Shown here: piece by piece, positions 967-17,062 of the stretch
Layout of the letters: each line of letters opens with the position of its first letter
How positions within the stretch are numbered: position 1 is the stretch's first letter
DNA from: Muribaculaceae bacterium
Lineage (GTDB): Bacteria > Bacteroidota > Bacteroidia > Bacteroidales > Muribaculaceae
Length of the DNA stretch: 17,232 nucleotides
Reading direction: 5' to 3'
Assembly: GCA_024400895.1 (NCBI GenBank)
Contig: JAKSMA010000020.1
Span: forward strand, 1 to 17,232
Made by a program: the position numbers and the translations under genes
Notes under the pieces: generated by a model
The model's input: only the letters and a program-made list of their open reading frames with translations
What the model was told of the DNA's origin: nothing
Database searches by the model: none

Positions 967-2133
967 TTATTCCTCGCCGGTTTCTGATTTTTTCATTTCA
1001 GAGATGATGTAGTAGGCGCCGGTGAGCACCACTGGGGATGTGAGAGGTGCATCGAGAGCGAGTTCTACACGACCGTTTTCTTCACGTCCTTTGGTGATGC
1101 GCACTGGATGGAACACGCATTTGCCATTTTTGCGGGTCATTGTGAAGATGTAGCTACTACCCTCTTCGTCGATAATGCCTTCTGATGGCACCGACGGACT
1201 GGTTTGCTGTCCTGAGGCAATCTTGCCCTTTAAATACATACCCGACACGAGGTGGCGACTATCGCCAGTGAAAGAGGCACGCACATGCACAGCCTTGGTT
1301 TGAGGATCCACATCCTTGCCTACAGAATACACTTTTGCCTGGATGACGCGAGTGGGGTCGGACTGTGGCGAAAGCGACACCGACTGACCTACAGCCACGC
1401 GTGGAAGGTCTTTTTCATACACCATGAAGTCGGCAAACACGTTGTCGGAATTCACGATGCGGAACATGGGCGACTGTGGGTCGGCAAACTGCCCTGTGGA
1501 CACGAGCACCTCTTCCACCGTGCCGCTGATAGGGCTGGTGACGGTGATTTGTGTGGTGGTTTTGCCGGCTTTCACACTTTCGGGACTGATGCCGAGCATA
1601 CGGAGTTGCTGACCGATGGTGCTGATTTCGGTGCGGAGCGTGCGTTGCTCCGATTGTGCCTGCTGCAAATCACGGCCTGAGCCTGCATTGCCAGCCACGA
1701 GCGTCTTCTGGCGCTGGAGTTCCTGCTCCACAAATGTGAGTCGGTTTACGGCTGTGAGATAGCGTCCTTGCAATTCAATGAGGTCGGGGTGCGAAAGCAC
1801 TGCCAGCACCTGTCCACGACTCACGCTTTGGCCTTCGTGCACACTGATACTCTTTACATTGGCTCCAACAAATGGGGTGACTTTCGCCACACTTTGGGGC
1901 GATGCCTCCACCTGTCCTTTCACTTCGATGCCCGAAGCGAACATATACTGCTCGGGCTGGCCTGTGGTGATGTCCAATTGCTGCACTTGCTTATCGGTGA
2001 GCACCACATCCACCATGCCCACTTCTTCCTCCTCTTCTTCGGCCGATGCTTCACTTCCTGTTTGATTGCCACAAGATGAAACGCCAAGAATCATCGCTAA
2101 CGCTAAAACGGGGGTTATATATTTGCTAATCAT
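967..2133 (-). CDS. Membrane fusion protein (CzcB/CusB-like) of a metal efflux RND pump
   Basis: This 388-aa periplasmic adaptor is anchored by a lipid and links the inner-membrane RND pump to the outer-membrane channel. The N-terminus is a lipoprotein signal with VSSC ending at Cys21, followed by an acidic linker containing six consecutive glutamates. A lipoyl/barrel-sandwich half (roughly 90-120, with GQVLAVLSHPDLIELQ) leads into a coiled-coil hairpin (about 120-180) and the returning lipoyl half around SPISGTVEEVLVSTGQ. Beta-barrel and membrane-proximal segments fill the rest. Length and domain order are those of HlyD/CzcB adaptors of heavy-metal RND systems. The gene starts 32 nt after the outer-membrane-factor reading frame ends, so it is the last gene of the efflux operon. 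An acidic linker of this kind could bind metal, but that is inference. The substrate is probably a divalent cation, judged from the pump. Confidence 0.9.
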   Translation of the reverse strand: MISKYITPVLALAMILGVSSCGNQTGSEASAEEEEEEVGMVDVVLTDKQVQQLDITTGQPEQYMFASGIEVKGQVEASPQSVAKVTPFVGANVKSISVHEGQSVSRGQVLAVLSHPDLIELQGRYLTAVNRLTFVEQELQRQKTLVAGNAGSGRDLQQAQSEQRTLRTEISTIGQQLRMLGISPESVKAGKTTTQITVTSPISGTVEEVLVSTGQFADPQSPMFRIVNSDNVFADFMVYEKDLPRVAVGQSVSLSPQSDPTRVIQAKVYSVGKDVDPQTKAVHVRASFTGDSRHLVSGMYLKGKIASGQQTSPSVPSEGIIDEEGSSYIFTMTRKNGKCVFHPVRITKGREENGRVELALDAPLTSPVVLTGAYYIISEMKKSETGEE

Positions 2134-2165
2134 AATGAACTATCTATTATTTTTTTGCGTGTTGA

Positions 2166-2957
2166 TTACTTATTGTTGACATAATATTCCAAACGGAAGT
2201 GAGCCGAGAGATACTGCGCCACAGCGTCCCAATAGTCGAGTTCCACCTGGGTGGATTCTTTCATATTTTGTACAAACTCCACATACGACGATGCGCCTTC
2301 GCGGTAAGCCAGCAAGGCCGCAGCCCTTTGTTCTGCCGCCACAGGGAGTGCAGTTTGGCGATAATAGTCCACACTCTGGTTCCATTTCTTTTCTTCACTG
2401 ATGAGCGAACGGCGTGCTGCCGAAGTTTCGAGGCGCTGCTGATTGAGGCTTTGCACCGCAATGTCGTGGTTGATTTGCGCTTCCTTGATTTTGCTCTCTT
2501 TTGAAGAGAACAGCGGCACACTCACACCCAGACTGAACTGATGATAGCCCAACTTCGAGCCAATCATCTGACTTCCATATTCGGCGAAAAACTTGGGGCG
2601 ATATTGCGATTTTTCCAATTCGAGTTCGGCTTGGGAGAGTTTGATTTTCTCCTGCGCCAATCGTTCGGAAGGATGAAGACCAAGCACCTCGTCGGAAGCG
2701 TGGCACTCAATAGGGAGCACGTCTTCGGGAGCATACTTCACCGAATCGCCAAGCCAGCGGTTGAGGTTTTGCAGCGCTATCTGGTAGTCGATTCGTGCCT
2801 GGTCGAGCGACAGGCAGGCTTGCGACGACTGATTCTGTGCCGAAATGAGTTCGAGGCGAGAAGTGGCTTGTGCGCTAAATCTCACCCTTGCCGCACGTTC
2901 AAACTCGTGGCAAAGCGAATCGAGGCGTTCATACACCGCTACACGCTTACTTGCCAC
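2166..2957 (-). pseudogene. Remainder of the fused TolC-like outer-membrane factor, cut off by an in-frame TAG
   Basis: This 263-codon frame is in phase with the preceding RND gene and separated from it only by the TAG at 2970-2972 plus four sense codons. It continues the TolC/CzcC-type outer-membrane efflux protein that begins in the C-terminus of the pump. It contains the long amphipathic helices typical of the family, the mid-protein strand region (FSLGVSVPLFSS) and the second helical repeat up to the C-terminus. It lacks the first helix and any signal peptide. The only nearby in-frame start is GTG 2955-2957, with no ribosome-binding site, so independent translation would give a non-exported fragment. 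I therefore treat it as the disabled 3' part of a pump-channel fusion, unless the TAG is a sequencing error or is read through. Domain identity is firm; coding status is uncertain. Confidence 0.75.
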
Positions 2958-2969
2958 ATAGGCGGTGGC

Positions 2970-5900
2970 CTAGTCGATACTCACTTCGCGACGCAAATCG
3001 GCTTCGGCAAGCGACACTGCTGCACGGCCCACTTGCTCGCGCTGCCCGTGATAGTTGCGGAGTTTGTCGGCGCCAATCAAATCGAAATTCTGGCGCACGG
3101 TTATCAAATTCCAAACAGCCTCATTGCCACGGCCAATCTCCTCGCCACCGGTGCTGAATTCTGTTTCGCCAAGGTCCCACTTCGCCTCGCGCGCTGTGGT
3201 GGCAGCAGTCACTTCCATTCGGGCTGCCTTGAGCGATGGATAGTATGCCACCGCCATATCCTGTGCCTTCTGGAGCGAAACAGGAGTCTGCGCCTGTGCG
3301 CCGAGCGACGCCATCAGGAGCATCGCCACTGTGGCAACCGCCTTTTTCTTGGGGCGGCGGATGCGTTCTTCAAGTGCGTAGAGCAATGGCATCACAAAGA
3401 GTGTGAGCAGTGTGGCGCTAAACAAGCCGCCAATCACCACTGTGGCCAATGGGCGTTGCACTTCAGCACCAGCCGATTGCGACACTGCCATTGGCAAGAA
3501 ACCAAGCATAGCAGCCAACGCCGTCAGCAAGATAGGACGAATGCGTTCGCGTGTGCCTGTGATGATGATGTCGAGTGTATTGGTCATACCTTCGGATTTT
3601 AGAGAATTGAAACGATTGATAAGCACGAGACCGTTGAGCACCGCCACACCGAAGAGCACGATAAACCCTACGCCCGCAGAAATTGAGAACGGCATGCCAC
3701 GCAACCACAGCGAGCACACGCCGCCAATGGTGGCCATTGGCACAGCCACAAATATCATTACACTTTGCGAGAACGACTGCAAAGCGAAGTAAAGCAGCAC
3801 AAATATGAGGAGCAATGCGATGGGGAGCACGATGAGCAAGCGGTCGCGCGCCTCTTCCAAATTCTGGAATTCGCCGCCATACACCACATGATAGCCCGCC
3901 GGGAGCGAAACCTTGGTGCTCATCTGATGCTTGATGTCGTCGACCACCGACTGCACATCGCGCCCACGCACATTCACGCCCACATAGATGCAACGCGATG
4001 CGTGCTCACGCGAAATCTGCATTGGCCCTGGTTGATACGATACATCAGCCACCTCGCCAAGCGAGATTTGTTGGCCGTCGGGGGTGTCGATGAGCAGGTT
4101 GCGCAAGTCGTCGATATTATGACGATGCTCCTTGGCCAGGCGCACCACCATATCGAAGCGCTTTTCGCCCTCAAACACCACGCCAGCCTTGCCGCCGGCG
4201 AATGCTGTGCTCACATATTCGTTGAGTTTGTCGACTTGCAGCCCATAGCGCGCCATTTGTGCACGATTATAGTTCACCGTGATTTGTGGAAGGCCGTCGG
4301 TGCGCTCAAGAGCCACATCTTCGGCGCCAGGAATACGGCTAATCACCTTGGTCATCTTTTCGCCGAGCATGCCCAGTGTGTCGAGGTCTTCGCCATAGAG
4401 CATCACCGCCACATCTTCACGCACACCGGTGAGCAACTCGTTGAAGCGTAGTTCCACTGGCTGTGAGAACGAGAAGTTGAGGCCGGGAAGTTCGGCTTTC
4501 AGCTTTTCCTCCATCTTCTCGATGAGTTCTTCCTTGCTGCTTGCCGAAGTCCACTTACTCATATCCTTTTCAAGAATAATGAAGCTGTCGGTATAGTCGA
4601 AGCCCATCGGGTCGGTGGGAATGTCTGCCACACCGATGCGGGCACACACCGTCTGCACTTCGGGGAAATTCGCCTTAATCAGGCGTTCCACTTCCTGCTC
4701 GCGCTTGATGGTTTCGGAGAGCGAACTACCGGGGCGAAGGAAGGTCTGCATAGCGATGTCGCCTTCGTCAAGACTCGGGATGAACTCGCCACCCATCTGC
4801 GAGAATGTGATGCCTGTGGCCACCAGCATAACCAGCGAAGTGCCCAGCACCAATGCCTTATGGCGCAGAGCAAAACGCAATGCCGGGGTGTAAACTTTCG
4901 TAATTTTCCCCATCACCACATCGCTCATGCGCTCCAAAGCGCGTTCTGTGCGAGAGAAGAGGCTATTTTTGTTGGCCAACGGCTTCATCAGCAATGCCGA
5001 AGCCACTGGCACATAGGTCAGGCAGAGGATGATAGCGCCCAGCACAGCAAATGCGAATGTGAAAGCCATAGGCTGGAACATCTTGCCACTCACGCCTGTG
5101 AGGAACAATATCGGGGTGAACACGATGAGAATGATGAGCTGGCCAAAGAATGCCGAGTGCATCATGGTGGACGCCGACTGTTCGCTGATGCCGTCCATAT
5201 CTTTGCGGGAAACGGCCGAGGTGGCATTCTTCAAACGGTGTTCCACCTCAAGCACAATGCCTTCCACGATGATAACCGCGCCGTCGACAATGATACCGAA
5301 GTCGATAGCGCCAAGGCTCATCAAATTGGCCCAAACGCCAAAAATTCGCATCAATATGAATGCAAACAGCAGCGAAAGCGGAATGACCGACGCCGTGATG
5401 ATACCGCCACGAAGGCTACCCAAAAGCAGCACAAGCACAAAGATGACGATGAGCGCACCTTCAATGAGGTTGCGACTGATGGTACCGGTGGTGCGTGAAA
5501 TAAGGTTGGAGCGGTCGAGGAACGGACGGATTTCAAGGTCGGCAGGGAGCGATTCCTGCACTTCCTTGATGCGCTCTTTCACATCGGTCACCACCTTGTC
5601 GGAATTGGCGCCTTTGAGCATCAGAATCATGCCACCAACAGCCTCACGCCCGTCTTGCGTGAAAGCGCCGTAGCGCACCTGCTCACCGAAATTCACATCC
5701 GATGCCACATCGCCCACAAGCACTGGCACGCCGCCATTTTCCTTCACTACAATCTGACGAATATCGTCCACGCTCTTCACCAAGCCCTCGCCACGAATGA
5801 AGTGTGCCATGTGGTTTTTCTCAATGTAGGCGCCGCCGGTGTTCACATTGTTGGCCTTCAGTGCTTCTATCAGTTCGCCCATCGTCACGCCCATCGCATT

Positions 5901-6494
5901 GAGGCGGTCGGGCTCTACCGATATTTCATACTGCTTAATACTGCCACCGAACGAGTTCACCTCCACCACGCCCGGAATCATGGCCATCTGGCGGCGCACA
6001 ATCCAATCTTGAATGGTACGCAACTCCTGTGGAGTGTAGCGTGTGGAGTCTTTGGGCACGAGGGTGTACTGGAAAATTTCACCCAATCCCGTGGTGATTG
6101 GCCCCATCTCGGGTGAGCCAAAACCTTCAGGAATCTGCTCGCGCACTTCGTCGAGTTTTTCTTGCACGAGCTGTCGGGGCAAATATGTGCCCATATCGTC
6201 GGAAAACACCACCGTCACCACCGACAAGCCAAAGCGCGAAACCGAACGAAGGTCTTCCACGCCAGGCAAATTGGCCATCGCCAATTCCACTGGATAGGTG
6301 ACAAACTGCTCAATGTCGGCAGTAGACAGGTTTTCCGAAACGGTGATTACCTGCACCTGATTGTTAGTGATATCGGGTGTGGAATCGATATTGATGGTGC
6401 GCAACGAATACACACCGCCACCTATAATGGCAAGCAGCATGAGCAGCACCACAAACTTATGTTTGATGGAAAAATGAATAATTTTATTAATCAT
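2970..6494 (-). CDS. HME-RND heavy-metal efflux pump (CzcA/CusA family) with start of a fused TolC domain
   Basis: This 1174-aa inner-membrane proton-driven exporter expels heavy-metal cations. Residues 1 to about 1047 form a complete RND protomer: a first transmembrane helix near 13-31, two large periplasmic loops and two six-helix bundles. The transmembrane-4 motif DFGIIVDGAVIIVE (398-411) has the D-x5-D-x6-E pattern of CzcA-type pumps for Zn/Co/Cd, unlike the pattern in Cu/Ag pumps such as CusA. After a KKK boundary, residues about 1049-1070 form a signal-peptide-like segment ending AQAQ, and a TolC-like outer-membrane-factor domain begins. Fusions of this pump with its outer-membrane factor are familiar in Bacteroidota and reach about 1440 aa; here a TAG stops the frame after VSID. 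The start at ATG 6492-6494 is supported by the promoter 26 nt upstream. The RND part looks intact and the fusion looks broken. Confidence 0.88.
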   Translation of the reverse strand: MINKIIHFSIKHKFVVLLMLLAIIGGGVYSLRTINIDSTPDITNNQVQVITVSENLSTADIEQFVTYPVELAMANLPGVEDLRSVSRFGLSVVTVVFSDDMGTYLPRQLVQEKLDEVREQIPEGFGSPEMGPITTGLGEIFQYTLVPKDSTRYTPQELRTIQDWIVRRQMAMIPGVVEVNSFGGSIKQYEISVEPDRLNAMGVTMGELIEALKANNVNTGGAYIEKNHMAHFIRGEGLVKSVDDIRQIVVKENGGVPVLVGDVASDVNFGEQVRYGAFTQDGREAVGGMILMLKGANSDKVVTDVKERIKEVQESLPADLEIRPFLDRSNLISRTTGTISRNLIEGALIVIFVLVLLLGSLRGGIITASVIPLSLLFAFILMRIFGVWANLMSLGAIDFGIIVDGAVIIVEGIVLEVEHRLKNATSAVSRKDMDGISEQSASTMMHSAFFGQLIILIVFTPILFLTGVSGKMFQPMAFTFAFAVLGAIILCLTYVPVASALLMKPLANKNSLFSRTERALERMSDVVMGKITKVYTPALRFALRHKALVLGTSLVMLVATGITFSQMGGEFIPSLDEGDIAMQTFLRPGSSLSETIKREQEVERLIKANFPEVQTVCARIGVADIPTDPMGFDYTDSFIILEKDMSKWTSASSKEELIEKMEEKLKAELPGLNFSFSQPVELRFNELLTGVREDVAVMLYGEDLDTLGMLGEKMTKVISRIPGAEDVALERTDGLPQITVNYNRAQMARYGLQVDKLNEYVSTAFAGGKAGVVFEGEKRFDMVVRLAKEHRHNIDDLRNLLIDTPDGQQISLGEVADVSYQPGPMQISREHASRCIYVGVNVRGRDVQSVVDDIKHQMSTKVSLPAGYHVVYGGEFQNLEEARDRLLIVLPIALLLIFVLLYFALQSFSQSVMIFVAVPMATIGGVCSLWLRGMPFSISAGVGFIVLFGVAVLNGLVLINRFNSLKSEGMTNTLDIIITGTRERIRPILLTALAAMLGFLPMAVSQSAGAEVQRPLATVVIGGLFSATLLTLFVMPLLYALEERIRRPKKKAVATVAMLLMASLGAQAQTPVSLQKAQDMAVAYYPSLKAARMEVTAATTAREAKWDLGETEFSTGGEEIGRGNEAVWNLITVRQNFDLIGADKLRNYHGQREQVGRAAVSLAEADLRREVSID

Positions 6495-13806: not shown

Positions 13807-14076
13807 TTAAATGGTGGTGAGGTATAGCAGTGCGGCTATTTGGAGAACGAGGACAAGCGGGATGGTGATGGTGAATTTTTGCTTTTGCGTTTTATGACGG
13901 AATGCTCTCATGCCGAGTAAAGCCCCCACGCTGCCGCCGGCTATTGCCATTAGCAACAGTGTGGCCTCGCTGATGCGCCACCGGTTGTGCTTGGCCTTAT
14001 ATTTATCAATGCCATAAGCCACAAAGGCCACAACATTCAGCACCGCCAAATATATTACCACAAATTTCAACAACAT
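13807..14076 (-). CDS. DUF1294 small membrane protein
   Basis: The product is 89 aa with about three hydrophobic helices. The segment AYGIDKYKAKHNRWRISEATLL, then AGGSVGALLGM and FRHKTQKQKF, is the hallmark of DUF1294 proteins. Their function is unknown; some members are fused to a cold-shock domain, but no such domain is present here. The frame can begin at GTG 14077-14079, but the adjacent ATG 14074-14076 is preferred. Upstream lies a 70-bp repeat that carries a promoter-like element and the mutated start of an antitoxin-like gene (14088-14157), so this gene may now be driven by a duplicated promoter. Confidence 0.85.
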   Translation of the reverse strand: MLLKFVVIYLAVLNVVAFVAYGIDKYKAKHNRWRISEATLLLMAIAGGSVGALLGMRAFRHKTQKQKFTITIPLVLVLQIAALLYLTTI

Positions 14077-14087
14077 CACATTAATTT

Positions 14088-14157
14088 CCTAATATGTCCA
14101 ATTCTTTTATTTGAATATCCATTGCTACATTTTAATTGTGCATTAAGACGATGCAAA
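14088..14157 (-). repeat. 70-bp direct repeat, copy A (next to DUF1294)
   Basis: It aligns without gaps to 16931-17000 with 58 of 70 positions identical (counted by eye). Read on the minus strand, it contains the promoter edge, a leader, and the first codons of the antitoxin-like gene. The ATG has become ATA, followed by KELDILGN and a stop, compared with MKEVSILGRS in copy B. The -7 element just outside reads TGTCTTTG (14154-14161), one base off consensus. It is therefore a degraded copy of that gene's start. Confidence 0.75.
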
Positions 14158-14202
14158 GACAAAGAAAACATTGCAATAACCACATGGCTCATTTTTGCGT
14201 GA

Positions 14203-14391
14203 CTATCTATCTACAACACAGAACTAAAGGGAGACATTAATGATTCGGTTCATGTCATCTGTAAGCATTATGGTGTCACTTGCGTTGATTTGCATGACAT
14301 CGACAAGCAAAAGTCACACCCATCTATTAAGGGCATGACTTCAATAGCCGAACAAGTAGTTAACGCACTAAAAACGCTACGTAGCAAATAA
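14203..14391 (+). pseudogene. 3' remnant of an SGNH/GDSL-type hydrolase
   Basis: The frame is open for 62 codons from just after a TGA at 14200-14202 to TAA 14389-14391 but has no usable start. It reads NDSVHVICKHYGVTCVDLHD followed by SHPSIKGMTSIAEQVVNAL. That is the C-terminal end of an SGNH/GDSL hydrolase: the Tyr-Gly-Val-x-x-Val-Asp-Leu strand, and the HP(S)xxGM segment where the catalytic histidine of the Asp/His pair sits. The nucleophile serine block and the rest of the enzyme are missing. It lies inside the repeat-bracketed block on the opposite strand from its neighbours, which suggests that an insertion or deletion replaced the front of the gene. Confidence 0.6.
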
Positions 14392-14447
14392 AAATATCCT
14401 AAATTCTCACATTATTATAAAATCATAGATACTGCTCTTAATAGTTT

Positions 14448-15224
14448 TCAATGTTCTTGGATGCTTAAATCTATGTACTTGCCGTGGTCGAAACTTATGT
14501 GCTCGTTATGGAATACATAACCCAATTGATTGGACAGGCATGTGGTTTGACCGATTACTTTGTCCACGTTGTAATGAGAGTGCCCAAATATCCAAAAGTC
14601 GATATCTGAGTCTTTGATATAGTCTTTCAATTCTACTGTGAAAGCTCCATTGGCAAGACTGCCCTCAAATTTAGGACACTGCATCAAGAATGATGGTACA
14701 TGGTGTGTGACAACGATTATGTTCTTGGCTGTACTGTCTTGAACTGACTTCTTGATGAACTCTAAACAGCGACCATGCTCTCTGTTAAAATCAGCGAATG
14801 CAAGCAACTCGCCATTGTAAAGAATCCTGCGGAAGTCGCTGATGACTTGCTCAGTATAGTAGGCTTCTTTCAGAGGTATATTTGACCACAGAGTAGATAT
14901 GATGAAGTCGGTGTCTTCTATGTGCACTACGGCGTTGTAGTAGCTGTGCACATTGTGCCGGATCTCCAGGCAGTAGCCATCTTGGAGTGTTGCGATGTCG
15001 AAACACTTGTAGAACTCATGGTTGCCCATACAGCAAATGACCTGTTTGTAGTTTTCGGAAGCCCAATCCCAGAATGGATGCTTGGTATAGTTTTCGTCAC
15101 CAAGATAGCCGATATCACCTGCAAGAACAAGTACATCGCCTGTAACCTTTAGAGGATACTCCTTGAGATACCGCCAATTTTCGGCAAACTCAAGGTGAAG
15201 GTCTGATGCATATTGTATTTTCAT
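14448..15224 (-). CDS. Calcineurin-like metallophosphoesterase, third gene of the NTase cassette
   Basis: The product is 258 aa. The complete di-metal phosphoesterase motif set is present: DLHLE (Asp8, His10), GDIG (Asp37), GNHEFY (Asn68, His69), THHVPS (His174, His175) and FGHSHYN (His215, His217). No signal peptide or membrane helix, so cytosolic. Enzymes of this fold cleave phosphomono- or diesters, including nucleotides and cyclic nucleotides. Its ATG overlaps the TGA of the nucleotidyltransferase gene by four bases (15221-15224), showing tight translational coupling. A phosphodiesterase coupled to a nucleotide-transferring toxin could remove the toxin's product or act as a second effector; this is inference. 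Last gene of the operon; 55 bp then separate it from the opposing SGNH remnant. Confidence 0.88.
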   Translation of the reverse strand: MKIQYASDLHLEFAENWRYLKEYPLKVTGDVLVLAGDIGYLGDENYTKHPFWDWASENYKQVICCMGNHEFYKCFDIATLQDGYCLEIRHNVHSYYNAVVHIEDTDFIISTLWSNIPLKEAYYTEQVISDFRRILYNGELLAFADFNREHGRCLEFIKKSVQDSTAKNIIVVTHHVPSFLMQCPKFEGSLANGAFTVELKDYIKDSDIDFWIFGHSHYNVDKVIGQTTCLSNQLGYVFHNEHISFDHGKYIDLSIQEH

Positions 15225-16003
15225 GAGCGTGGAATAAAGAGTTCGTTAAGTTGGTCTAACAATGCATCAATAAAGTCTTCGCTTTGGTCAAGAGACTTTG
15301 CCAAAGGAGAGGCAAGTTCATTCCAGTCATTTCTGATTGCTGTAACGAAGTCTTTTATACAACCTGCAATAGACGTTGGTGCAGATATAAATTCATCGGG
15401 AGATAGCAGGACTACATTCTTGAGTACGTCTGAACGATGCTTCTTGATGTCTTTTGTATTGACATGTTTACCATCTGCCTTATCTTGCACTAAGTTCAGG
15501 TATGCACGAGCCTTCAAGGCTATAAGTGCAGTTGAATCAGCGTGGCGGATGCCATCAGTCAATCGGCTATGCTCAATGGTGAAATGATAATAGTCATCGT
15601 CCAAAATAATTGCACTCAGACTTGAAACGTCTTCTCCTATAGGCAAAGGTTCAATGACCAATCCTTTTGGCTCGCCCAAAACATCCGGGTGACGTGAGAG
15701 CAACTCTATCATTTCTGGATAGCCAGGTTTGCCATCCACAAACCGATAGAGTTCGTATTTGACAGTTTCTTCTTTTGTGTGGCACTTTTCTGGACGATAA
15801 CCGGCTTCTCGAATGAATTGCCAGAATCGTTCACCATATCCAGGGCTCATCTTCTCGACGATGACAATCATGTCAATGTCGTGTGTTGCACGTGGCTTTA
15901 CCGCTGTGCCTTTCATTGTGATGTCACAAGCTGTGCCACCGATGATTACATAGTTATCCGAGTACGCCTCAAATGCTTCCTTGAATTTATCTAATCCTTC
16001 CAT
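15221..16003 (-). CDS. AbiEii-like nucleotidyltransferase (toxin candidate)
   Basis: The product is 260 aa. The nucleotidyltransferase signature is IIGGTACD with Gly22-Gly23, then THDIDMIV with Asp42 and Asp44 as the metal-binding pair; E100 in MIELL is a likely third carboxylate. The later helical part has ALIALKARAYLNL (Lys164) and KDIKKHRSD (184-192), the Lys and KDxxxxxxD pattern seen in AbiEii/AbiGii-type proteins. In characterised type IV toxin-antitoxin systems this fold adds nucleotides to tRNA 3' ends or otherwise blocks growth; target and activity here are unknown. The ATG (16001-16003) lies 13 nt inside the end of the preceding winged-helix gene, and the stop overlaps the phosphoesterase start. 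The gene is more AT-rich than the core genes to the left. Family call good; toxin role inferred. Confidence 0.8.
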   Translation of the reverse strand: MEGLDKFKEAFEAYSDNYVIIGGTACDITMKGTAVKPRATHDIDMIVIVEKMSPGYGERFWQFIREAGYRPEKCHTKEETVKYELYRFVDGKPGYPEMIELLSRHPDVLGEPKGLVIEPLPIGEDVSSLSAIILDDDYYHFTIEHSRLTDGIRHADSTALIALKARAYLNLVQDKADGKHVNTKDIKKHRSDVLKNVVLLSPDEFISAPTSIAGCIKDFVTAIRNDWNELASPLAKSLDQSEDFIDALLDQLNELFIPRS

Positions 16004-16953
16004 TCTATTTCATTTATTATTCTTAATAATTCGCCTTCAACTCGGGCGTCAGAGTCTTCTCGCAAGTTGATTGCGAGAGAAAGTTTGTCTACCCATTCTG
16101 AGGTTGAGCCTGAAAATGATACCACAGGATATTTCCATACCTCAATCATGACTTTGCCGTCAAACTCATTCATGTTGAGCAGAGCCTTATTGTCAATCAA
16201 CCTTTGCAATTCTTTCTTGCTCATCATGACCATCCTGTTGTCATCAGGATTCAACCAACTATAATGGGAAAGAGCATTGATGCTACAATTTGGGTATTTG
16301 GTATCGGATTTTAAAGCATCGCAATATAACCGTTTCTCTACAGGGTCAACCAGATATCCCTGTGCTTTGTCCCACAAGTTGCGACCTTTGGCAAGAAAGT
16401 GTACAATCTTGCTTTTGGAACCATTTGAAACCTTCTGACACAAGTTCAGATCTTCTAGACAGGTCAGCCCCAAAGTGATACTACCATACGAATATGGCAG
16501 TTTACCAATCATTTCTCTTGCTGATAACCCTTCGAGGCTTTCGACTTGCAGATGGTATAATAACATGTATTGTGCCACTAGTGACAAGCGTTTTGCGGGT
16601 CGAGTCTTACGCATTCTCTCGTTGGCTACCAATGTGGGTAAGAAAGCAAATTTATCACCCATAACAAAATAAACATTCTTGTCAATGAGTCTCTGCCGTT
16701 CGTAAGAAGGACCAGACGAAAGGATAAATACGACAGGCATTCCGAATATCGTCTGCATACGGTCAGCGGTGATGGAACATTCGCGAGGAGTTGGGTTATT
16801 CTTCTTCGGCTTAAGAAAAAGCAGATTCATCCCATAGAATTCACCATCATAAAAGAAGAATGTCAACGATTCTCCGATATTTATGCCCTTCAACTGCGCT
16901 TTGGTGCGCTGCCGAAGAGGAATACTTCTTCCTAATATGCTTACTTCTTTCAT
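15991..16953 (-). CDS. Winged-helix regulator/antitoxin-like protein of the NTase cassette
   Basis: The product is 320 aa. No standard family name is certain. Residues 1 to about 118 form a beta-rich N-terminal region. About 122-192 looks like a winged helix (QYMLLYHLQVESLEGLSARE, then SITLGLTCLEDLNL as recognition helix and a basic wing). The last 100 residues (IEVWKYP, EWVDKLSLAINLR, ARVEGELLRIINEIEW) resemble the C-terminal region of MarR-like proteins that sit beside such toxins. In AbiE systems the first gene is a winged-helix antitoxin that represses its own operon; gene order and overlap (13 nt, 15991-16003) fit that role. The promoter core, leader and first eight codons are duplicated at 14088-14157. 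Role inferred by position; it could instead be an activator of the downstream enzymes. Confidence 0.65.
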   Translation of the reverse strand: MKEVSILGRSIPLRQRTKAQLKGINIGESLTFFFYDGEFYGMNLLFLKPKKNNPTPRECSITADRMQTIFGMPVVFILSSGPSYERQRLIDKNVYFVMGDKFAFLPTLVANERMRKTRPAKRLSLVAQYMLLYHLQVESLEGLSAREMIGKLPYSYGSITLGLTCLEDLNLCQKVSNGSKSKIVHFLAKGRNLWDKAQGYLVDPVEKRLYCDALKSDTKYPNCSINALSHYSWLNPDDNRMVMMSKKELQRLIDNKALLNMNEFDGKVMIEVWKYPVVSFSGSTSEWVDKLSLAINLREDSDARVEGELLRIINEIEWKD

Positions 16954-17000
16954 TTGAATATCTGTTGCAACATTTTAATTATATATTAAAACGATGCAAA
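16931..17000 (-). repeat. 70-bp direct repeat, copy B (start of the antitoxin-like gene)
   Basis: Intact partner of 14088-14157. On the minus strand it spans the TTTG end of the -7 element, the leader, ATG 16951-16953 and the next seven codons. The most conserved blocks are the leader (CATTTTAATT on the plus strand), ACGATGCAAA next to the -7 element, and the early codons. Confidence 0.75.
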
Positions 17001-17004
17001 TATA
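16997..17004 (-). promoter_or_regulatory. -7 promoter element of the antitoxin/NTase/phosphoesterase operon
   Basis: On the minus strand this reads TATATTTG, an exact TAnnTTTG, giving a leader of about 38 nt before ATG 16951-16953. No good TTTG is seen 20 nt upstream, so an activator or autoregulation may matter. Confidence 0.5.
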
Positions 17005-17062
17005 ACACAAATATCTCTATTATCAGTATGTTAAATGTAAAAAAATCGTATTAAACGCAAAA

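Follow-up and report, generated by a model that had tools for sequence, protein, structure and literature searches.

A mobile regulator-nucleotidyltransferase cassette of Bacteroidales with a repeatedly gained metallophosphoesterase

The window analysed in this study is a whole contig (C113; 17,232 nt) of a Muribaculaceae draft genome that is 2.18 Mb in size and 67% complete. Three genes on its reverse strand make up a compact cassette: WH (15991..16953, −; 320 aa), a winged-helix regulator and putative antitoxin and autorepressor; NT (15221..16003, −; 260 aa), a nucleotidyltransferase (NTase) and putative toxin with the motif R38-x-T40-H-D42-I-D44; and MPE (14448..15224, −; 258 aa), a calcineurin-like metallophosphoesterase recognized by PF00149, phrog_1649, and its alignment. 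A first-pass annotation of the window had described three overlapping reading frames with intact catalytic motifs in both enzymes, lying in a block richer in A+T than its surroundings, and all of this was borne out: WH and NT share 13 nt and NT and MPE share 4 nt, the motifs are invariant in 42 aligned rows of NT and 29 of MPE, and G+C is 0.39–0.43 in the three 1-kb steps of 14001-17000 versus 0.43–0.56 in the other fourteen. The tight coupling of the cassette genes is retained in relatives, in which the gap between WH and NT is −13 or −7 nt in 100 of 111 pairs and that between NT and MPE is −4 or −1 nt in 57 of 74, near-identical copies included. The gap-free arrangement would fit transcription from one promoter, and the gene order, with the regulator gene preceding and overlapping the NTase gene, is the bicistronic layout of AbiE-type systems. 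Elsewhere in the window (967-6494, −) are genes that by eye belong to a heavy-metal RND-type efflux system, comprising an adaptor, an outer-membrane factor, and a pump of 1174 aa that at its C-terminus resembles the start of the outer-membrane factor.

WH has an N-terminal domain of ~115 aa and, at ~120–200 of its 320 residues, a MarR-like winged helix-turn-helix (wHTH). Upstream of its start, from −46 to −11, lies an imperfect palindrome (16965..17000, −) with 15-nt arms, 13 matches, and a 5-nt spacer, which is a putative WH operator; the wHTH and this palindromic leader together support the earlier view that NT has a DNA-binding partner. Such palindromes were found in 38 of 68 distinct WH leaders and in 13 of 122 control leaders (Fisher p 3.4e-11). 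The 68 leaders were those kept after dropping any that were ≥75% identical to a kept one, WH starts were picked by a length rule, controls were taken from up to two other ORFs per locus, and p values in the leader test came from plain shuffles (60 per WH leader, 30 per control). The WH palindromes are conserved and their arms diverge together; in L089, L091, L099, and L161, the arms are perfect yet different.

The palindrome lies inside the upstream copy of a 97-nt direct repeat (16929..17025, −), which covers the WH leader and the first eight WH codons. The downstream copy (14086..14182, −) is 76% identical and holds a relic leader, a second palindrome at 14122-14157, and relic WH codons at 14087-14110 that lack a start codon (IKELDILG, versus MKEVSILG upstream); no third match to the palindrome was found in the draft genome with up to 3 mismatches. 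The cassette had been called repeat-flanked in the manner of mobile genes, and the repeat itself is real, but it looks unlikely to be a transposon end: it is a duplicate of the WH leader, with its palindrome, and the first eight WH codons, and its downstream copy is a relic. A cassette in another MAG (L002), 98.6% identical to this one, retains the downstream relic, and the identity stops at 14085, the edge of the relic. The simplest reading is that the relic would be the remains of a decayed second cassette. In another locus (L060:2-2743), a second WH fragment begins 15 nt after MPE on the same strand, and tandem cassettes are possible there. Between MPE and the relic leader, the window also carries 49 open codons ending in a stop on the forward strand (14242-14391, +; ...VDLHDIDKQKSHPSIKGMTSIAEQVVNALKTL...), which by eye resemble the tail of an SGNH-type hydrolase gene.

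Neither NT nor WH reached a Pfam or NCBIfam cut-off, no PADLOC or PHROG family matched either protein at E ≤ 1, a result by which NT was not placed among the CD-NTases of CBASS, and a PDB sequence search with NT gave no match. The predicted structure of NT is nearest to MenT3 and MenT1 among the named matches and is of the MenT-type NTase fold, with MenT-type and antibiotic NTases as its top fold matches; Foldseek alone returned no match to the NT model at E ≤ 0.001. Residues G22-G23-x-A25, R38-x-T40-x-D42-x-D44, K164, and K188-H189-x-x-D192 are invariant in the 42 aligned rows, and the model and motifs together support a MenT/AbiEii-like NTase fold, in keeping with the enzyme first proposed. 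In all 107 NT proteins, 90 of them distinct, the first place of TxDxD is a threonine (104 identified by pattern and 3 by eye), as it is in all 21 proteins of NT2, a second NTase family considered below. In NT this residue, T40, stands two places before the first catalytic aspartate, as does the Thr/Ser phosphoacceptor of MenAT-type systems, an equivalence drawn by spacing and not by superposition. NT is broken or missing beside a full WH in six loci (L065, L066, L080, L099, L108, and L109) and WH is short beside a full NT in L018 alone; these numbers, low and drawn in part from draft assemblies, would fit an NT that acts as a toxin held by WH. MPE is retained in three of the loci with a broken or missing NT (L066, L108, and L109). 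The last of these (L109:6429-8157) is missing NT altogether, with MPE starting 1 nt after WH.

For the comparison with known kinds of systems we drew on the available parts of PMC3985639 and PMC12287305. Membership in classical AbiE (AbiEi/AbiEii), with which the first-pass annotation had compared the cassette, was not supported: PF08843 (AbiEii) did not match NT and matched 3 of 30 relatives below cut-off (best E 0.064), a local profile comparison of NT with 17 AbiEii proteins aligned only 34 columns around motif I, and a profile comparison of WH with 14 proteins encoded upstream of AbiEii genes, selected by position and not necessarily AbiEi, showed no similarity. Like AbiE, the cassette places a regulator ahead of an NTase with motif I, has a leader with inverted repeats, and is associated with mobile elements, but the wHTH, which is N-terminal in AbiEi-type antitoxins, lies mid-protein in WH, and MPE is an addition. 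Genes of the MPE type, or of two further phosphoesterase types termed MPE2 and MPE3, were found in 0 of 20 AbiEii control loci, whose flanks measured ~1.4 kb or less and might not reach a gene located past the upstream partner. With MenAT it shares the modelled MenT-type fold and the threonine two places before the first catalytic aspartate, whereas WH is large and winged-helix, a phosphoesterase is added, and NT lacks a PDB sequence match. HEPN-MNT type VII systems likewise pair a small NTase with a regulator or toxin; in the cassette, however, no HEPN family matched WH, NT, or MPE at E ≤ 1, and some loci lose NT yet keep MPE. By analogy, the cassette would work like MenAT or AbiE, as a regulator with an NTase, yet by Pfam it is not an AbiE member.

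MPE matches PF00149 at E 1.1e-13 and the phage family phrog_1649 at E 3.5e-41. Its residues D8-x-H10, D37, N68-H69-E70, H174-H175, and H215-x-H217 are invariant in the 29 aligned rows; when strict motif patterns were applied to 126 MPE proteins, 18 missed at least one, and the alignment contains no GDxVDRG-type stretch. MPE also matches the PADLOC profile PDC-S10 (E 2.9e-10, 37.8 bits, best stretch residues 1-107), but PDC-S10, which we take from its name to be a single-gene candidate, has neither WH nor NT. MPE ranges more widely than the WH-NT pair, because among the scored candidates 4659 proteins matched MPE at E ≤ 0.001, as opposed to 1683 for NT and 712 for WH. In a sample of 393 genomes of the order, MPE was found at 66 places in 58 genomes (E ≤ 1e-30), 11 of them beside WH-NT and 55 elsewhere, and 30 of the 79 rows of the MPE tree are solo or stand beside another small phosphoesterase, MPE4. 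The overlap of MPE homologues with MPE4 (193 aa) is seen in L155:3270-5726 and L151:4255-6750; a T4 Rnl2-type RNA ligase gene immediately precedes the two in L155 (one locus), and in L151 a 376-aa gene occupies the position of the ligase. These arrangements could possibly be RNA-repair operons.

Among 79 loci from the genome-contig set (genome_contigs), MPE directly follows NT in 60, and all three genes are full in 51 of these, the other nine having one gene short or cut by a contig end. The remaining loci comprise one with all three genes degraded (L063), two within the clade that lack MPE (L048 and L051), two that are cut short (L059 and L065), and 14 distant loci (L067-L080) that have no MPE, in 12 of which (L067-L078) both WH and NT are full. 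WH adjoins NT in 75 of the 79; in three of the exceptions NT lies at a contig start and the fourth, L079, is an NT fragment only.

The cassette is also mobile. L023 and 13 further loci (14/79) share 4.9–14.8 kb at 99.4–100% identity across Bacteroides, Phocaeicola, Parabacteroides, Leyella, and Prevotella, and beside the L023 cassette are an integrase, a primase-like gene, DUF4134, and TraG. Relatives of NT occur in 49 plasmid records (32 predicted conjugative), 3 unverified phage records, and 3 viral contigs, counts that refer to NT matches, with WH checked only in the fetched records. Phage tail genes surround L105, and a gene for DUF2586, presumably a Mu-like tail sheath, adjoins L082 and L105. 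Type I restriction genes lie near the cassette in L097 and L104 (by Pfam) and in L095 and L100 (by eye); L096 has a SIR2 gene, and L003, L006, and L099 have AbiLi/AriA-like and PDC-M12 genes. These neighbours were noted in loci picked for closer inspection and do not give a frequency; for those loci, they support the mobile, defence-associated setting that had been suggested for the cassette. Both plasmid loci retrieved from outside Bacteroidota, L084 and L085, have WH-NT without a phosphoesterase neighbour. In L084 (6759-9077; Methylocella tundrae), the third gene after WH-NT, overlapping by 4 nt, encodes an nSTAND3 ATPase that has a sub-cut-off Mrr-like N-terminus and matches PADLOC PDC-S73.

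How firmly the phosphoesterase is linked to WH-NT was judged in the order sample, in which 26 of the 393 genomes had NT profile matches and 20 loci could be assessed. The six excluded genomes held fragments of 37 and 47 residues (G025 and G163), a match inside an NT2 gene (G116), a partial match (G210), or matches at contig edges (G279 and G329); G003 and G291 were judged from coordinates. MPE follows NT in 6 of the 20 (G000, G003, G120, in which NT is broken, G201, G315, and G356) and precedes WH in 5 (G022, G145, G159, G227, and G346), while MPE2 is adjacent in 3, after NT in G245 and G291 and divergent before WH in G006; none of these arrangements was seen in the other 6 (G007, G017, G130, G131, G179, and G370). 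A phosphoesterase is thus present in 14 of the 20 assessable loci, in two gene orders and of two types, and the proposed three-gene form escapes the refutation that had been set for it, absence of the phosphoesterase beside nearly all related pairs. Chance adjacency would be about one in a thousand per MPE copy (4 kb in 3.5 Mb), and of the 4 copies of MPE2 in 29 NT genomes, 3 adjoin WH-NT. That the three genes form a fixed unit holds for one Bacteroidales clade, in which MPE follows NT in 29 of 32 rows of the NT tree, but not beyond it, where the two-gene form is common. These data support near-fixation of the phosphoesterase within the close clade and its independent recurrence outside it. 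Within the clade MPE has been lost twice, in L048, whose genome has an MPE match elsewhere, and in L051, whose genome has none at E ≤ 1e-20. MPE is not needed to tolerate NT, because WH-NT without a phosphoesterase neighbour is common (L067-L078, L084, L085, 6 of the 20 order-sample loci, L048, and L051); it is helpful at most, and not essential.

Homologues of MPE led to another regulator-NTase pair, HTH2-NT2, whose NTase aligns with NT over 208 columns at 77% probability in a profile comparison and occurs in 29 of the 393 genomes. MPE is the third gene of HTH2-NT2 in L111, L158, L159, and L162; NT2 and MPE are fused into one polypeptide of 492 residues in L114 (one locus); and in L116 NT2 is mostly missing, with a stub that runs into MPE. 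In 8 of the 29 genomes, the gene immediately upstream of HTH2-NT2 encodes a different, PPP-type phosphoesterase, MPE3. It carries GDIHG, GDYIDRG, and GNHE, which we take to be PPP signatures, matches 1g5b, a Ser/Thr protein phosphatase, over its residues 4-198 of 220, belongs with protein phosphatases and ApaH to a PPP-like set, and has as its best solved relative 4j6o, presumably a Pnkp phosphatase domain. Seven of eight MPE3 copies scoring ≥290 bits are beside NT2, as is one broken copy (G268), and the eighth (G067) is on another contig. An adjacent phosphoesterase was found in 10 of the 29 NT2 genomes (MPE3 in 8, plus G139 and G185), and neither MPE nor MPE3 was seen beside NT2 in the other 19, among which G067 is counted provisionally; G029, G180, and G268 were judged from coordinates, and other phosphoesterase types were sought only in fetched regions. 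Of the 6 genomes with an NT2 match in a sample of 149 from the family, 4 have MPE adjacent to it. HTH2-NT2 stands between type I restriction R and S genes in L144:903-6370, in a setting similar to that of WH-NT in L095, L100, and L104.

Both trees are quick ones made without bootstrap, with 25 inner forks open in each; 127 candidate loci were reduced to 79 rows for the MPE tree, and 63 rows were kept for the NT tree, by dropping short ORFs and same-label rows >85% identical. On the MPE tree five contexts need 13 changes, and well-supported branches force at least 2 changes (gains or losses) for HTH2-NT2 and at least 5 for WH-NT-MPE, while the rows with MPE before WH group together with one solo row. 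Outside the main clade of the NT tree, rows with MPE before the pair, MPE after it, MPE2, or none of these are intermingled.

What MPE does beside NT admits several explanations. It could be a passenger on the same mobile islands that does not work with NT, given that unrelated genes gather on such islands, that many WH-NT loci have no MPE, and that 55 of its 66 places lie elsewhere; yet the 4-nt or 1-nt overlaps of NT with MPE in 57 of 74 pairs, the two gene orders, the several phosphoesterase types, the second NTase family, the fusion, and the 0 of 20 AbiEii loci make this quite unlikely. MPE could also be a protein phosphatase that switches NT on, with WH making NT autophosphorylate T40 and MPE removing the phosphate, in the manner of T39 in MenA1/MenT1. 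According to the available parts of PMC11375011, the antitoxins of MenT-type NTase toxins sequester the toxin or make it phosphorylate itself, which MenT1 does at T39, the equivalent of S78 of MenT3. The threonine before the catalytic aspartate in 107/107 NT and 21/21 NT2 proteins would suit such control, as would the PPP-type motifs, 1g5b match, and PPP-like set of MPE3, but MPE itself is without the GDxVDRG-type stretch, the threonine may be structural, and the available main text of that paper does not contain the word "phosphatase"; we consider this role unlikely, though a serious contender.

Two further explanations were weighed. Pairs of an NTase and a phosphodiesterase are usual in signalling, and NT might make a nucleotide signal that MPE degrades or answers to, for which the fusion of NT2 with MPE in L114 can be counted; however, the top fold matches of NT are MenT-type and antibiotic NTases, NT has no PADLOC family at E ≤ 1, and the cassette holds no further effector gene, so we regard this as very unlikely. 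Finally, the roles might be reversed, MPE being the toxin and NT an antitoxin that attaches a nucleotide to it, in the way of HEPN-MNT type VII, where MNT is the antitoxin and transfers NMP to the toxin (available parts of PMC11586414). The tight NT-MPE overlap would agree with this, but loci with a broken or missing NT (L066, L108, and L109) or with a stub of NT2 (L116) still have MPE, and MPE often stands alone, which leaves the reversal highly improbable.

The cassette is real and mobile, is ordinary as a toxin-like pair, and is unusual in its repeatedly gained phosphoesterase. Its architecture, fold class, palindrome, mobility, and repeated, independently gained linkage, one fusion included, are the ground on which we favour, with a confidence just short of even, a horizontally moving toxin-antitoxin or defence-like module in which WH represses and holds NT, NT modifies RNA, and MPE counteracts NT. 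In this module WH would bind the palindrome before its own gene, repress the operon, and check NT. NT would be a MenT/AbiEii-like toxin whose target is probably RNA, for example at tRNA acceptor ends. MenT toxins extend the acceptor ends of tRNA, according to the available parts of PMC10435456 and PMC11541572, and this activity, the RNA ligase neighbour in L155, and the match of MPE3 to 4j6o speak for RNA as the substrate of NT. MPE would be a recruited third component that most simply removes or repairs the nucleotidyl modification on the RNA target, and its likely use would be to limit leakage and to permit recovery once NT has acted. It is because the pairing recurs in several independent forms among gut bacteria and related taxa that the third enzyme is suggested to work with the toxin, whose effect it may undo.

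More tentatively, and with some doubt, HTH-NTase toxin modules of at least two families may have repeatedly and independently recruited at least three kinds of phosphoesterase, placed before, after, or fused, into a write-and-erase class, the mark set by the NTase, nucleotidyl or phosphoryl, being removed by the phosphoesterase. No description of an HTH-NTase-phosphoesterase trio appeared in the titles and abstract openings among the matches listed, which mostly leave out subscription journals. If true, write-and-erase toxin systems would be a new general class. A dedicated, independently gained phosphoesterase partner would mean that reversal of the NTase, or phospho-control, is built into many such modules, here in a compact module carried on conjugative elements of common gut bacteria.
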